From Flavobacterium aquariorum (GTDB lineage Bacteria > Bacteroidota > Bacteroidia > Flavobacteriales > Flavobacteriaceae): a DNA stretch of 64,000 bases. Below the pieces are notes generated by a model. That model did no database searches, was not told the DNA's origin, and was given only the letters and a program-made list of their open reading frames with translations. The translations under genes and the position numbers were made by a program. Positions 27,898 through 62,053 of the stretch are shown one piece after another; positions within the stretch are counted from its first letter, which is position 1; each line of letters begins with the position of its first letter. The stretch is from assembly GCF_003254745.1 (NCBI RefSeq), contig NZ_QKXH01000002.1:248001-312000 (forward strand). The letters are read 5' to 3'.

Positions 27898-30800
27898 TTA
27901 ATCTCTGCTTAAATCCAAATAACCCGATTTATCAATTCCGTTACCACTAAAATCTTTGTACTTAACAATATAAAAATACGTCCCGCTTGGCAACCCTTCC
28001 GATTTATTGACTGTTACCCTTCCTTCAGAAATACCACTAAAAATTACATTGTCGTTATTATAGCCTTCGGACTCATATACCTTAATTCCCCAACGATTAA
28101 AGATTTCTACTGTGTTTTTTGGATAGCATTCTATACCTCGAATGCGAAAGAAATCATTTAAACCATCACCATCAGGAGATACGGCATTAAATACTTCCAG
28201 ACTACAGCCATCGATACCCAAAACTGTAGGGTCATCTTGTAAAGGACTATCATCATCAGACATATCAACAACTTCTGCACCAGATGGGGTTGTTCCTTTC
28301 ACAATTGCTTGATTGCTTACAGATCCCTTAATAATATCTTGGAGAGTTAAATGATAAATGCCGTGAAATGATGCACCATCTGTTGCTCCTGCCACTAAGT
28401 TTATTGGCCCACCCATAATTACAATTCCTGGTAATGCATCCGTAACTATAACATTCGTAAGAGGTAAATTTCCGGTATTCATAACTATAAAGGAGTAACT
28501 TATTGTTTCCCCTATTTCTGCATACCCATCTCCATTATTATCATCAAAGACTGCTTTTTTTAGAATAGCTATAGAGGGAGACTGAGGGATAGCGGTTATT
28601 GTGCAAGTCAGACAATTAGAGTTTATTGGACATACAACACATGGAGTAGGATCTTCAGACAAAGCTGTAATTGTTGCGTTTGCAGAAGAAATCGCCGATG
28701 CGAAAGCTGAATTATAAACATATCCTAATGCAATATCTGAATTGGTAATTGAATACTCTGCCGTAAAAGTGATACCATCGGAGGCGCCTGCGGCCAAAGT
28801 ATTCAAAACACCTCTAACCGCAGGTACATTGTCGTCTTTTATTGTAATGTTTCTTATAGCTGTATTACCTGTATTAGATATCGTAAACGTATAATTAACA
28901 ACATCACCAATATTAGCTATACCATCTTTATTTTTGTCTTCATAAATTCCCTCTTTCATGATTTTAATATTAAAAAGGGGATTCACTATAGTAACTGTTG
29001 GAGTGTCATTTATAACCGTTGTCCCTGAAGTATCGGTTACTGTTCCAGCCGTTGGCGCAGTTCCTACTACAGTTGCACTGTTGGTCACTTTCCCGTCATC
29101 AATATCTGATTGTTTGATTGTATAGGTTGCAGTCGCAGTACCGATCCCATTTGGTGTCAATGTACTTGGAGTTACAGCTAGATTCACACTACCTGTTAAT
29201 GGGTCATTTACAATGATATTGCTCAAAGTCGTATTTCCGGTGTTAGTCACTGTGAAAGTATAGGTAATCAAATCTCCCACAGTTCCTGTTCCGCCCAATA
29301 CTCCAGTTTTTACCAAAGCAATACTTGGGCTTGGAGTCAAAGTGGTTACTGTCGGAATATCATTGGTAACCGTTGTTCCTGAAGTATCTGTTACTGTTCC
29401 ATTGGTTGGTGTAGTTCCCGTTACCGTGGCGCTGTTGGTAACTATTCCGGCATCAGTATCCGATTGTTTGATTATATAGGTTGCAGTCGCAGTACCGATT
29501 CCATTTGGTGCCAATGTACTTGGGGTTACCGCTAGATTCAAACTACCTGTTAATGGGTCGTTTACAATGATATTGCTCAAAGTCGTGTTTCCTGTGTTGG
29601 TAACCGTAAAACCATAAGTGATAACATCACCTACTGTTCCTGTTCCACCAACTGCTCCTGTTTTGACCAAGGCAATCCTTGGACTTGGAGTCAAAGTCGT
29701 TACTGTCGGAGTATCATTGGTAATCGTTGTTCCCGAAGTATCGGTTACTGTTCCACCCACTGGCGTAGTTCCCACTACCGTGGCGCTGTTGGTCACTTTC
29801 CCGGCATCCATATCCGATTGCTGAATGGTATAAGTAGTAGTTACTATTCCTATTGCATTGGGAACCAATAAACTTGGAGTTACCGCCAAATTCACACTGT
29901 TCGTCAAAGCATCATTAATAATAATATTACTTAATGTGGTATTTCCTGTATTGGTCACCGTAAATGTATAGGTAATCATATCTCCTGCCGATCCAGTTCC
30001 TCCAACCGCCCCAGTTTTCACTACAGCAATGCTAGGATTTGGAGTCAATACAGTTTCAGTTGGGGTATCGTTGGTAATTGTTGTTCCTGAAGTATCGGTC
30101 ACTGTTCCGCCCGTTGGTGTGGTTCCTGTTACAGTAGCGCTATTGGATACTTTCCCGGCATCCATATCCGATTGCTGAATAGTATAACTAGCTGTTGCTG
30201 TTCCAATCCCGTTTGGTGCTAATATACTTGGAGTTACCACCAAATTCAAGCTGTTCGTCAAAATATCATTGATGAAGATAGTACTCAAGGTCGTATTTCC
30301 TGTATTAGTAACCGTAAAAGTATAAGTAATCATATACCCTACTTCTCCTGTTCCTCCTATTACTCCAGTTTTCACCAAAGCTATGCTTGGATTTGGTATC
30401 AAAGTGGTTACTGTTGGGGTATCGTTGGTAATCGTTGTTCCCGAAGTATCGGTTACAGTTCCGTTGGTTGGGGTGGTTCCTGTTACCGTGGCGCTATTGG
30501 TCACTTGCCCAACATTAACATCCACTTGTTGGATTGTATAAGTTGCAGTCGCAGTACCGATCCCATTTGGTGCCAATGTGCTTGGAGTTACCGCTAAGTT
30601 TGTACTTCCCGTCAATACGTCGTCAATAAAAATGTTAGTCAATGTAGTATTACCGGTGTTGGTCACCGCGAAAGTATAGGTAATTACATCTCCTGCTATT
30701 CCTGTTCCGCCAACTGCTCCAGTTTTGACCAAGGCGATACTTGGACTTGGAGTCAAAGTCGTTACTGTCGGAGTATCATTGGTAATCGTTGTTCCCGAAG

Positions 30801-33800
30801 TATCGGTTACTGTTCCGTTGGTTGGAGTAGTTCCTGTTACAGTAGCAGTGTTTGTTACTTGTCCGGCATTCACATCCGCTTGCTGAATCGTATAACTAGC
30901 TGTTGCTGTTCCTACAGCATTTGGCGCCAATGAACTTGGTGTTATTGCTAAGTTTACACTGCCTGTCAATAGGTCGTTGACAATAATATTGGTCAAAATA
31001 GTATTTCCTGTGTTAGTAACTGTAAAAGTATAGGTAACGATATCTCCTGCCATTCCTGTTCCTCCCACAGCTCCTACTTTTACCAAAGCAATACTTGGAG
31101 AAGACACAAAAACAGTAACAGTAGCTGTATCACAATTTGCTGGGTTTAATTTTTCACAAATAGTATAATCTACCGTATAAGTTCCTCCTGGAGTATTTGA
31201 TGCTACCAACACACTCCCGTCTGTATTTACAGTTAATGGCCCATTCGGAAAAGAAGTCATAACAACATCTGATGCATTTACTGGACTACCGTTTAGAGTA
31301 TCATTAGCATAAACATTAATCCCTGTATTACCTCCAGTTGCTCCATAAATTGTTCCCGTGTTGGTATCATTTATTGCATCAATTAGCGCTGCCGTCACAT
31401 TTACTGTTACGATAGCCGAATCACAAGTCAATGAATTCAATTTGTAGCAAATTTGGTAAGTAATAGTATAATTACCCGCAGGAGTTCCCGCAGGAATAGT
31501 TATAATTCCTGTCAAAGGATCTATAAAAGGCACGAGTGCTCCAGCTGACATTGGGGTGGCTGGGGTGGTTATTGATAAGTTAATGTCACTAAGCGTGACT
31601 GGAGTTCCATTTATAGTGTCATTCGTCAACACATTACCCGCATCGATATTCCCAGTAGCTCCAATAATTGAAGGCAGAGGATCATCGACAGCTTCAATAA
31701 CAGCACAAAATAATGTACCCCCACTGGTACTTGCAGTGTTAATAAATGCTCCATATACATTAATGTCATTAATTACACTTGCAAGCGACCCAACACTAAT
31801 CCTAACTTCGTCAAAAGTTTGAGTGGTACTGAAACCTACATTATAAATTCCGGAACCAGAACCATAAGGAGTCAATAAAGACAGATTTAATAACTGCGAA
31901 GCACTTTTTGATTCCCTAAACACTCCATCCAAATAAGTGGAAATTGTTAAAGAGTTAAATAAATCCAACTGAACCAAACTGTTCAAGTCCTTTATTGTAA
32001 ATCCGGCAAAAGTTCCCACAGGATAAGTTGATAATTGATCCAGAACGGCAATAGAAGCAGGTGCTATTACTCCCGCCGTAACCAAAATAGTAGCAAAATC
32101 TGTAGTGCTTGCTGTCAATACATTATTGGTGTTATTCACTGCACACGCTACACAAGCTACACCATTCACACCTGTTTTGCCACTATCAATGACTACTGGA
32201 AATGTTGGATTCGTTAATGCATAAGTCTTGTTACATTCCAAAGTTACTGGACACAATTTTTGAAAAACAGCATTATAAACATTTACAACGCCTAAATTTA
32301 CAGTTGCTGTATTTGCTATAGTAATACGAGCTTCATCAAAAGATTTAGTCGATACAAACCCAATAGTTTTTATGCTACTTCCCACCAAAAGATTGGTGCC
32401 AACAGTGGCTAAAGCAGAATTCCCAAATTTAGTCTCCTGAAGTACTCCATTGAGGTAGGTCCTTATAGTAACAGCATCAAGGGCATTTACATTCAACAAT
32501 GAAGGATTTTCAACCGTAAAACCAACAAAAGAACCTATCGGATAATCCGTTATCTGATCCTTTACCGAAATACTGCCACTGTTTCCAACACTTGCCGTTA
32601 AATTGATTTGCGCAAAATTTGATCCATTTTGATCTATTAAATTCTCCGAATTACTTATAGAACAAAGCGCACAAACCAAACCATCTATGCCAGTATTTAT
32701 GCCGTTAATATAAACTGGATATGTAGGTGCCACCATTTCAGTTTGTGTATTACAAGCTAAATCTGGTCCAGCACAGAAATTTTCAAAAACAGCACTGTAG
32801 ACTCTTGTTGAACCCAAACTCAAAGCTACTGTTTGATTAATTGAAATCTGAACTTCATCAAATGATTTTGTTGATACAAAACCTACTTTATATCGACCTG
32901 AATTATTTAGCAAAGCACCATTTACAACTAAATTATTACCAAAGAATTGGTCTTGTGGTGCTCCGTTTAGATAGGTTGTTATACGTATATTTCCTAAAGC
33001 CGAAACGCTTAGTAAATTGGAATTTTCTATTTCAAAACCAGCATAAGTGCCAAGGGGATAATCCGTAAGTTGATCTTTTACAGAAATACTGCCTGAACTT
33101 GCAATACCTGCTGTTAAAGTTATTGTGGCATAATCTCCCGTACTGGAGCTAATCACATTCTCAGCATCAAAAATATTGCCTACTGTAACACCCGAAACAC
33201 CTGTATGAGAAGCCTCTATACTGACGGGGTAAGTTGGAAGATTCATTGGAGATGCAGTATTGCAACTCAAGGCTGGGCCTGCGCAATAATTTCTTATTAC
33301 AGGATAATAAACATCAACAGTATTCAACAGGCCAACTAAGCTTCCAACGGAAATTTCAATCGCATCAAAGCTTTTTGTCGTATTGAAACCCAATACATAA
33401 TTATTTCCTGAGCCATTTAGCAATCCCAAACCCAAAAGCGAAGAACCTGTAGCTGTTTCTCTCAGAACACCATTCAAATAAGTTCTGATCGTAATGGAGC
33501 CCAGTAAATTTACACTCAACAATCCACTAACATTGATTCTGTATCCTGCATAAGTGCCCGCAAGATAATCCGTATCATTATCGGTAACTCTATAATTTGC
33601 GGAGCCAGCAACACCGATGGAGACAGATGCAGTAGCAAAATTATTCAAATCAGCGTCTATAAGTCTTGATGCATTAGAAGCTGAACAAAGCAAACACAAT
33701 CCACTAAGACTACTTGTCGCAGACAAATTACCAAAAGTACTATCAATAAAAGGAAGTGGAGTTTCGGTATTGCATTGAGCCAAAATATTCGTTGTAGCAA

Positions 33801-37161: not shown

Positions 37162-37262
37162 GAGCCATTTCCAGCTGTCCACTATATCTGTTGCCCCTCC
37201 CGTCTTTTGGGACGAGACGGGACAACAGGATGCCGTTTCCATCTGGGCTAGGGCATTTAGTA
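37159..37262 (+). repeat. Dispersed palindromic element, copy A (TAGGAGC...GGGCTAGGGC type)
   Basis: About 104 bp: TAGGAGC at the left, then CAGCTGTCCACTATATC, a hairpin core (CCCGTCT with AGACGGG), then TGCCGTTTCCATCTGGGCTA and GGGC. The flanks match the four other copies in this window; the hairpin sequence does not. It overlaps the stop codon of the 2H phosphoesterase gene. Confidence 0.8.
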
Positions 37263-47227: not shown

Positions 47228-47332
47228 GGAGCTGATTCCTGCTATTCGCTTGTATCTTTTTTTGGTCTCGTTAGAAAAAAACGAGACCAAAAAAAGGATA
47301 TCGCTTCTATCAGGGCTAGGGCTTTGGTAATT
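47226..47332 (+). repeat. Dispersed palindromic element, copy B
   Basis: TAGGAGC, then TTCCTGCTATTCGCTTGTATC, a long hairpin (TTTTTTTGGTCTCGTT with its complement around AGAAAA), then GGATATCGCTTCTATCAGGG and CTAGGGC. The flanks align with copy A; the hairpin is unrelated in sequence. Confidence 0.82.
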
Positions 47333-48016: not shown

Positions 48017-48565
48017 ATGAGCGAAAAGTACAAGTTTGGAGAAAAATCGGGAGCTTATTTTATAAGTTTTGCTACAGTGAATTGGATAGATGTTTTTACA
48101 AGAGACGTTTATTTTTCGACTATCACAGAATCTCTAGATTTTTGCAGAAAAAACAAAGGAATGGAAATTTATGGATATTGTATTATGCATAGTCATGTTC
48201 ATTTAATCTTCCGTTCCGCATTAGGTGATCCATCAGGATTAATTAGAGATTTCAAAGGCTTTACATCCAAAAAACTATTAAAATTAATAGAAGAGAATCC
48301 ACAAGAAAGCAGAAAAGAATGGATGTTGTGGATGTTTGAAAGAGCAGGCAAAAAAAACAGCAATGTAACCTTTAGACAGTTTTGGCAACAAAACAATCAT
48401 CCAATTGAAATGTGGTCATTGAAAGTATTTGAACAAAAACTAAATTACATTCATAATAACCCAGTTGAAGCAGGATTTGTAACAGATCCCATAGAATGGA
48501 AATATAGCAGTGCTAGAAATTATGGCAATAATGACCATACAATTCTGGAAATAGATATAAATTAA
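48017..48565 (+). CDS. REP-associated tyrosine transposase (RAYT, Y1/IS200-like)
   Basis: This 182-residue single-strand HUH nuclease has H60-V-H62 in MHSHVHLIF and the catalytic tyrosine probably Y144 in KLNYIHNNPVEAGFV, the motif typical of TnpA_REP proteins. It is bordered on both sides by identical 32-bp REPs in inverted orientation, 24 bp before its start and 5 bp after its stop. RAYTs are usually single-copy, domesticated and immobile, while acting on REP sequences elsewhere in the genome. The gene is intact. More REP copies lie at 49.1-49.2, 52.4 and 61.8 kb. Confidence 0.92.
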   Translation: MSEKYKFGEKSGAYFISFATVNWIDVFTRDVYFSTITESLDFCRKNKGMEIYGYCIMHSHVHLIFRSALGDPSGLIRDFKGFTSKKLLKLIEENPQESRKEWMLWMFERAGKKNSNVTFRQFWQQNNHPIEMWSLKVFEQKLNYIHNNPVEAGFVTDPIEWKYSSARNYGNNDHTILEIDIN

Positions 48566-49244: not shown

Positions 49245-49370
49245 GCCACCCATTCCAATTATCACGACCAATTTACTTTTCATATTTTCTTTCTTCGTTG
49301 ATGTACTATGTGGGCACGATTATAAATCCTCAATCACGTTTTAAGAATGGAACGCCATAATAATATTAGG

Positions 49371-49941
49371 GTGTGCCTATCGATTGTGTAGGCGTCACCT
49401 TCATTTTTGATAGGCACGCCTACCACTTTAGTAGGCGCGCCTATCGATTTCATAGGTATCGCATTTGATTTTGATAGGCGCGCCTATCAATTTTGTAGGC
49501 ACCTCCTTTGATTTTAATAGGCGGGCCTATTGGATTGTTTAGGCGTGCCATAGTTTTAGATAGGCTCGCCTATGGTTTTGGTAGGTGCGCCTATAGTTTT
49601 GGTAGGTGCGCCTTTGGTTTTGGTAGGTGCGCCTTTGGTTTTGGTAGGTGCGCCTATGGTTTTGGTAGGTGCGCCTATGGTTTTGGTAGGTGCGCCTATG
49701 GTTTTGGTAGGTGCGCCTTTGGTTTTGGTAGGTGCGCCTTTGGTTTTGGTAGGTGCGCCTATGGTTTTGGTAGGTGCGCCTATGGTTTTGGTAGGTGCGC
49801 CTTTGGTTTTGGTAGGTGCGCCTATGGTTTTGGTAGGTGCGCCTATGGTTTTGGTAGGTGCGCCTATGGTTTTGGTAGGTGCGCCTATGGTTTTGGTAGG
49901 TGCGCCTATGGTTTTGGTAGGTGCGCCTATGGTTTTGGTAG
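49371..49941. repeat. 21-bp minisatellite, degenerate left part and homogeneous right part
   Basis: Nine diverged units of 21-22 bp (49371-49563) are followed by eighteen 21-bp units (49564-49941), nearly identical (GTGCGCCTATGGTTTTGGTAG) and differing mainly by CTAT versus CTTT. In the left part several units hold the palindrome TAGGCGCGCCTA. Open reading frames on both strands are a by-product of a unit length divisible by three. The 22-bp units on the left break any common frame. Confidence 0.93.
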
Positions 49942-49957
49942 GCAAGCTACCAAAACC
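49931..49957. repeat. Inverted half-unit closing the minisatellite
   Basis: The last unit's GGTTTTGGTAG pairs perfectly with CTACCAAAACC across GCAAG, so the array ends in an 11-bp stem hairpin. Confidence 0.75.
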
Positions 49958-50460: not shown

Positions 50461-50611
50461 TATGAAAAACTAAATTTCTCGTTTAGCCCCGATGGAAGCG
50501 ATATCTCCCGATTTAGAAAAACAAGGCTTTTTAGCCGTAGTTTTTCTAAATCGGGAATTTAGCGGACAGCGGGACTAAAGATCTTTATGAGAATAGATTT
50601 TCTGCTCCTAA
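50461..50611 (-). repeat. Dispersed palindromic element, copy C
   Basis: Read on the minus strand: TAGGAGCAGAAAATC, CCCGCTGTCCGCTAAATT, a 17-bp stem (TCCCGATTTAGAAAAAC) with a nested GGCT/AGCC hairpin, then GATATCGCTTCCATCGGGG and CTA, AAATTTAGTTTTTCATA. It lies downstream of the SDR gene in the same orientation. Confidence 0.85.
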
Positions 50612-52452: not shown

Positions 52453-52601
52453 TATGAAAAACTAAATTTCTCACCTAGCCCCGATGGAAGCGATATCTCC
52501 CGATTTAGAAAAACAAGGCTTTTTAGCAGTAGTTTTTGTTAATCGGGAATTTAGCGGACAGCGGGACCGAATATGTTTATGAAAATGAATTTTCTGCTCC
52601 T
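52453..52601 (-). repeat. Dispersed palindromic element, copy D
   Basis: Nearly the same as copy C, including the CCCGATTTAGAAAAAC stem, but with changes on one arm (GTTAATCGGG) that partly weaken the hairpin. It lies in the gap between the two tetR genes. Confidence 0.83.
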
Positions 52602-61903: not shown

Positions 61904-62053
61904 TATGAAAAACTAAATTTCTCGTCTAGCCCCGATGGAAACGGCATCTCCCGATTTAGAAAAACAAGGCTTTTTTGCCGTAGTTTTTTCTAAATCGGGA
62001 ATATAGTGGACAGCGGGACTGAATATGTTTATGAAAATAGATTTTCTGCTCCT
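61904..62053 (-). repeat. Dispersed palindromic element, copy E
   Basis: Minus-strand orientation, closely matching copies C and D: CCCGATTTAGAAAAAC stem with nested hairpin, TGCCGTTTCCATCGGGGCTA, and flanks ending in TTTAGTTTTTCATA. Confidence 0.83.

Follow-up and report, generated by a model that had tools for sequence, protein, structure and literature searches.

How does a tandem array come to begin with unlike units, pass into near-identical ones and close with a hairpin? For this locus, the initial annotation proposed a 21-bp minisatellite with a degeneration gradient, whose polarity from old to young units would show growth from one end. All coordinates below are positions in the window—the whole stretch of 64,000 nucleotides that was analyzed, C45:248001-312000 of its own genome G000 (4.38 Mb, 57 contigs).

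That an array of 21–22-bp units lies at this place is confirmed by Tandem Repeats Finder (49567-49942, period 21, 17.9 copies, 97% matches) and by cutting the array at each TAGG, which sets the unit borders used here. The design of a unit is a dyad, TAGGnnnnCCTA (TAGG-nnnn-CCTA), followed by a T-rich spacer. The parts of the element are:

49345..49354, plus strand: short stretch ahead of the first dyad, GAATGGAACG (comparison of the 5' ends of 21 copies)
49355..49371, plus strand: dyad 0, CCATAnTAnTAnTnnGG, the 5' start of the head, overlapping unit 1 (21 headed copies)
49367..49560, plus strand: head, units 1–9 of 22-22-21-21-22-21-22-22-21 bp (position-specific conservation, unit lengths, length changes)
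49561..49581, plus strand: unit 10, the transition into the tail (TAGG split)
49582..49938, plus strand: tail, 17 near-identical 21-bp units TAGGTGCGCCTATGGTTTTGG with variants in blocks (Tandem Repeats Finder, TAGG split)
49931..49957, plus strand: terminal hairpin GGTTTTGGTAG-gcaag-CTACCAAAACC, overlapping the last full unit (inverted half-unit)

The start of the element lies 16 bases earlier than first placed, at about 49355, with the dyad CCATAATAATATTAGGG; the short stretch before it is partly similar in some other copies, e.g., GAATGCTGCG. Diverged units are present as described, but the TAGG split gives ten non-identical ones rather than nine (49367-49581; 22, 22, 21, 21, 22, 21, 22, 22, 21, and 21 bp), and the eighteen near-identical units come to 17 at 49582-49938, or 18 if the unit at 49561 is counted, before a partial unit that runs up to 49957. 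The two tail variants do not alternate but are arranged in blocks: one CCTATAG unit, then TT AAA TT AA T AAAAAA, with A for CCTATGG and T for CCTTTGG. The palindrome said to recur in several units has 22 matches at up to two mismatches, every one inside the array (mean 0.69 and maximum 4 in 100 shuffles), whereas the exact form TAGGCGCGCCTA occurs only twice. The inverted half-unit at the end holds up as a perfect inverted repeat with 11-bp arms and a 5-base loop; no T-run stands behind it in the window copy. A coding array was considered and rejected: the tail open reading frames of 160, 142, and 129 aa look like by-products of a stop-free 21-mer, and the 22-bp head units shift the reading frame.

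The core had been recommended for a search elsewhere, and it is found: in three further arrays of the same kind in G000, in more arrays of other genomes of the genus, and in at least one of another genus (G770, a true array with its own core). Twenty-one copies in six genomes carry a head—three in G000, two each in G167, G259, and G031, one in G156, and eleven in G397—a total that stems from a deeper search in ten chosen genomes together with a search for the dyad-0 motif at up to three substitutions. Seventeen of these heads are full (G000 3, G167 2, G259 2, G031 2, G397 8) and four partial (three in G397, one in G156). Genus-wide, a sequence-only head model, R1 (7 copies, 233 positions), was applied with strict filters and five candidates scored per genome. 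At E ≤ 0.001 it picked up 22 of 398 genomes, many of these matches being weak or confined to the tail; five genomes, namely G000, G167, G259, G031, and G397, yielded a full-length head. At the family level, 8 of 397 genomes matched, the window's own included, and none of the other seven has a full head. Four of these seven weak matches outside the genus were inspected: next to the real array of G770, G618 has two units, and the stretches examined in G616 and G653 contain no array. An exact-pattern scan of genome contigs matched a single record, Flavobacteriales bacterium 32-34-25. Phage and plasmid records (blastn) gave no match to the array and viral contigs none to three exact patterns, and a phage or plasmid origin was rejected on these searches. 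Counts of the element's own array family cover arrays other than those of G372 and the A+T-rich ones of G397. Among themselves, the head copies of G397 are at most 75% identical, which argues against a recent burst in that genome.

These copies bear directly on the proposed gradient. In 17 copies—the 21 minus G156, whose head is incomplete and which is left out of all head statistics, and minus G167b, G259b, and G397k, which carry whole-unit deletions—same-numbered head units of different genomes have a mean similarity of 0.633, different-numbered ones of 0.516, and units inside one copy of 0.517; 300 shuffles of unit order reach a mean of 0.529 (sd 0.003, maximum 0.541). Seven of the nine units are best matched by their homologue, the exceptions being units 4 and 5. 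Since the diverged units resemble their numbered counterparts across genomes more than the units of their own copy, they are, as judged from the sequences, a shared conserved head module and not decayed copies of the tail unit. Of the supposed polarity, what stands is that the like units lie at one end, beside the hairpin; the decay from old to young does not.

What is held in the head is its spacing. Unit lengths follow 22-22-21-21-22-21-22-21-21 with eight exceptions among 153 units (17 copies), half of them in unit 5; unit 8 has 22 bp in the window copy and 21 in the other 16 copies tested. With the three deleted copies included, 17 of 20 heads measure 216–218 bp, and the remaining three are shorter by about two units (175 bp) or one (196 and 195 bp). 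Head lengths change mostly by one base or by whole units: gaps between head pairs measure 1, 6, 7, 21–23, and 42–43, and only 1 once the three shorter copies are set aside. Gap openings per mismatch amount to 220/13185 = 0.017 (190 pairs; 126/9894 in the narrower set of 136 pairs without G167b, G259b, and G397k), as against 15/100 = 0.15 in four intergenic stretches compared between G000 and G167, which is to be read as a contrast rather than as a test because pairs of copies are non-independent. This intergenic yardstick uses the main matches (mismatches 17, 24, 34, and 25; gap openings 1, 3, 5, and 6) and leaves aside three secondary ones (16/1, 3/0, and 6/1); one of its stretches contains a Flavo-1 RNA.

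The letters, by contrast, drift. In the orthologous pair C30/G167a, the head has diverged by 13.6% and the intergenic DNA to its left by 7.4%, so that the head is not slow-evolving but constrained in its pattern. Within it, half-sites changed at 5/70 positions and core plus spacer at 28/143 (p = 0.025). For C56/G259b the counts are 8/63 and 36/130 (p = 0.027), and for both pairs pooled 13/133 and 64/273 (p = 0.0007), but the head tree groups G259b with G259a and not with C56, so the half-site argument is drawn from C30/G167a. Several G397 copies have the spacer of unit 5 inverted (AAAA instead of TTTT), so that what counts may be the A/T run and not the strand it lies on. Complementary dyad arms are in slight excess both within units (79/139, reached by 4 of 500 shuffles) and between neighboring units (85/134, reached by 1 of 500); when G-U pairs are allowed, the excess is gone (97 and 71 of 500 shuffles reach it).

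Copies of the element also differ in where they lie. As sister copies (85.9% identical, support 0.92), the window copy and G167b have the identical 27-base hairpin and lie at different loci: G167 has other sequence and no array at the window locus, with neighboring DNA 93.7% identical over 3.1 kb, and at the locus of G167b, G000 is without a block of about 1.1 kb that contains the element and a neighbor gene. Reciprocal loss of old copies could mimic such a move. C30 and G167a share one locus, and the arrays C56, C45b, and G259b sit just after related genes (L063, L065, and L124). In these same three loci, REP-like GAGCGGGACGCTCG hairpins are seen with one mismatch allowed. Judged by eye, the ends of the 21 copies show no terminal inverted repeats and no target duplication; no clean empty site was found, the element-free loci differing in other sequence too, and a search of the array loci found no transposase for the element.

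The window itself holds further repeats. A REP-associated tyrosine transposase gene (RAYT; NCBIfam NF047646) lies at 48017-48565, flanked by inverted copies of a 33-bp repeat, and is missing from the locus of the sister genome. With this RAYT as tblastn query, 28 other array loci, each a few kilobases long, gave no match, and mobilization by RAYT was dropped on this account. Five matches to the Flavo-1 RNA lie at 37164-37253, 47231-47321, 50481-50580, 52473-52572, and 61924-62024; the one at 50481 recurs in many near copies, in its own genome and in related ones, and hence behaves as a dispersed repeat. A tandem repeat at 28994-31099 (period 354, 5.9 copies) is possibly protein-coding.

The arrays are found preferentially between convergent genes. 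For 28 arrays of the family with both neighbors known, 12 lie between convergent genes, versus 38 of 373 background gaps, and one between divergent genes, versus 101 of 373, the background being gaps of at least 150 bp in 60 stretches, other genomes included, with open reading frames called by length alone. Headed copies counted once per locus behave likewise (7/19 convergent, p = 0.003; 1/19 divergent, p = 0.03). Ten unrelated arrays are found three times between convergent, five times between co-directional, and twice between divergent genes.

The tail varies on its own account. The initial annotation would have taken a mere neutral satellite as likely had distant strains agreed in copy number, no protein bound the array, and no other copies existed; between species, other copies do exist, and at their common locus the tail of G167a is 63 bp—three units—longer than that of C30. 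Among 20 headed copies, four are capped by a hairpin: those of the window copy and G167b have the same 27 bases, and those of G397f and G397i are alike. Runs of at least six identical units occur in three of these four copies and in none of the other 16, with p = 0.0035, a value that is overstated since the four are two related pairs. The longest runs of exactly identical units count 6 in the window copy, 16 in G397f, and 6 in G397i, and at most 2 in the other 16 copies. In G167b, the hairpin stands beside an unexpanded tail, which suggests that the hairpin came first and expansion later; the reverse order, an expansion once present and then lost in G167b, may also apply. The hairpin is not the sole route to expansion, as long tails of like units also occur in the headless array G160 (21 units, two distinct 12-base cores), whose end is no inverted half-unit.

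We read the array as a dispersed element of the genus (probably Flavobacterium), extragenic, palindromic, non-coding, and non-autonomous, of which the window contains one copy, and give this reading, with the steps proposed below, a probability of roughly 0.55. It combines nine unlike dyad units, spaced at about two helical turns, with a variable tail of 21-bp units. Proteins bound to the dyads along one side of the helix might keep the head spacing constant, and such binding would help the element either to spread or to act at gene ends. The hairpin of the window copy might have been born when a nascent strand folded back and copied its own last half-unit; it would then stall replication and let the nascent strand slip by 21 bp, by which the adjoining tail would grow and homogenize. 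A transposase would move the element, or would once have moved it.

Among known systems, the nearest in layout is BrickBuilt of Porphyromonas gingivalis, a MITE with a 23-nt minisatellite (PMC4596501). Both belong to the same phylum, are dispersed, intergenic, and non-coding with predicted stem–loops, and join a conserved leader to a variable count of 21–23-nt tandem units; BrickBuilt has 19 copies in the type genome, the present element 11 headed copies in G397. However, BrickBuilt is described with a non-repetitive leader and tail and with IS5-type terminal inverted repeats, whereas here nine unlike dyad units make up the leader, a hairpin closes some of the copies, and no IS5-type inverted repeats were found: the IS5-like repeat GAGACCTTTGCA has three matches in the window at up to two mismatches, none within 7 kb of the array. 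The units differ as well, those of the head measuring 21–22 bp with a single 23 among 153 and those of the window tail 21 bp. REP elements and BIMEs (PMC3733652) are extragenic palindromes, often grouped and mostly located between convergent or co-directional genes, where 27 of the 28 arrays here are found too. Set against them, the present element has a nearly fixed 21/22-bp spacing, a single direction, an ordered head, and few copies per genome; GTAG, which with CGTC as its alternative is their tag at the foot of the palindrome, is not constant here, standing ahead of 86 of 222 units with ATAG ahead of 69, and a RAYT lies near the window array but near none of the other 28 arrays searched. 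Because BrickBuilt differs in unit length and terminal repeats, and REP elements in GTAG and RAYT, we file the element under neither. Nor is it a CRISPR, with identical repeats and unrelated spacers, for the spacers of the tail are near-identical. Prokaryotic non-coding satellites are likewise tandem repeats spread over a genome, as in Leptospira interrogans (Subirana and Messeguer 2019, PMC6749651); Table 2 of that paper, which covers repeats >30 nt only, lists one Flavobacterium family with 69-nt repeats, and an ordered head or a hairpin end is not among the features described in its available text. The VNTRs of Flavobacterium psychrophilum are intergenic tandem repeats of the same genus that vary between isolates, but with units of 4–9 bp (PMC4501049, Table 3). 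A literature search, which left most subscription papers out of reach, found no description of this element, and it appears to be a variant of the dispersed extragenic palindromic or minisatellite-bearing kind that is undescribed in print.

Other explanations have to be weighed against this one. The array might act as a transcribed structured RNA, a row of hairpins behind genes or in convergent gaps, adjusting decay or termination. REP elements share the location bias, which the authors of the REP study read as a sign of transcription (PMC3733652). The window array folds far better than shuffles, but does so on both strands (z −8.4 to −15.9), which is what an array of dyads would show. Raw folding energy is lower on the head-to-tail strand in 15/20 heads and 15/17 tails; z-scores favor the other strand in 13/20 heads (one tie) and 12/17 tails. 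Between neighboring units, the N4/N1 pairs count 31 G-T versus 11 A-C, in favor of RNA, but over five stem positions the ratio is 55:49 within units and 43:27 between them (p = 0.62 and 0.07), and the four outer stem positions point the opposite way, with 25:30 within and 12:16 between. In three A+T-rich arrays it is 8:1, 1:4, and 0:5, figures from second-ranked pairings and duplication-related units to which no weight is given. RNAalifold yields −27.2 kcal/mol on 8 copies, with two-sided changes in 13 of 42 pairs and yet an unfavorable covariation term (+0.83); on 20 heads it yields a mere −5.8, and −5.5 kcal/mol on the other strand, in a run without shuffle control. No Rfam family overlaps the array in a search of the window. 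We lean toward a role at the DNA level and consider the RNA unlikely.

A second explanation places the function in the DNA: a protein-binding array with a chromosomal task—centromere, terminus, or nucleoid site—and no mobility. It draws on the dyads lying about two helical turns apart with their spacing held, on half-sites that change less, and on unrelated arrays of similar period in the same genomes. A site of this kind is hard to reconcile with full-length heads in only 5/398 genomes of the genus (at five candidates scored per genome), with a presence that differs between sister species, and with the eleven headed copies of G397, which are scattered in both orientations on both sides of the origin. 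The replication or segregation site put forward in the initial annotation looks unlikely for this last reason, the origin and terminus of G397 being rough estimates from the skew of 20 stretches, and a site of replication polarity was rejected because the copies face both ways. Overall, a chromosomal site seems improbable to us.

A plain neutral minisatellite, an old array grown by slippage whose left part decayed by mutation, would fit a tail that is near-identical in the window and varies in length between orthologues; the self-complementary core favors slippage, and core and spacer of the head change fast. It leaves the head unaccounted for, since the diverged units—units 4 and 5 excepted—are common to copies and species unit by unit, the 21/22 pattern is nearly fixed, and deletions take whole units. 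Such an origin is spoken against for the head and tenable for the tail alone; for the element as a whole, we see little chance of it.

Finally, a relic or end-part of a Mutator-type insertion sequence is very improbable: the end motif TTGTGTAAAC does abut the tails of C30, G259b, and G089b and, one base off, that of G167a, and G372 has IS copies with a transposase of the Mutator family inside or next to its arrays, but neither form of the motif turns up at the ends of the remaining headed copies, that of the window among them, and the G372 IS has its own 8-bp target duplications, as judged by eye, and hence reads as an insertion near arrays. The motif or its one-base-off form adjoins tails in L064, L066, L124, and L069, and the Mutator-family IS of G372 (403-aa transposase, PF00872) is located at L129:984-2333, L128:2911-4260, and L234:10045, with the duplications at L129 and L128; other copies (L236 and L241) have no array beside them. 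Arrays may be favored landing sites of this IS.

The extragenic element preferred here has a unit length that recurs in other arrays of these genomes. Five genomes—G397, G372, G167, G259, and G156, four with heads and G372 with none—were surveyed in 58 stretches of 20 kb, where 14 of 24 non-coding arrays have a period of 21, 22, or near multiples. Without two arrays of this element's family the count is 12/22, with p = 7e-6 against a uniform 9 in 66, a null that is crude and that some surveyed arrays, being possibly related, may not satisfy. Tandem Repeats Finder gives a lower share, 14/44 non-coding rows, of which four belong to this family. In three further genomes of the genus, 2/5 non-coding arrays have such periods, and six genomes outside the genus show no non-coding array in 400 kb. 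Several unrelated arrays of the 21–22-bp type carry dyads of their own. In G397, A+T-rich 22-bp arrays with TTATAC-n5-GTATAA-like hairpins are seen at L231:4190-4570, L214:7660-7930, and L225:2280-2505, and the tail of the headed copy G397g (L135) drifts toward similar TATAC-type units. Conceivably, the genus keeps a class of intergenic arrays of phased dyads under selection for unit length (two helical turns, 21–22 bp) and dyad symmetry but not for sequence, which would drift; a protein or process would then read the architecture and not the letters. The present element would be a member with a fixed nine-unit head and a growth-driving hairpin. We regard this as doubtful.

What seemed a decaying satellite becomes an ordered element with a testable rule, that spacing is conserved while letters drift. 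Its copies form a natural series for testing hairpin-driven growth in a bacterium: a hairpin without expansion, hairpins with runs of 6, 6, and 16, and no hairpin with runs of at most 2. A further question is why a two-turn unit should be common to intergenic arrays of these genomes that are otherwise unrelated.
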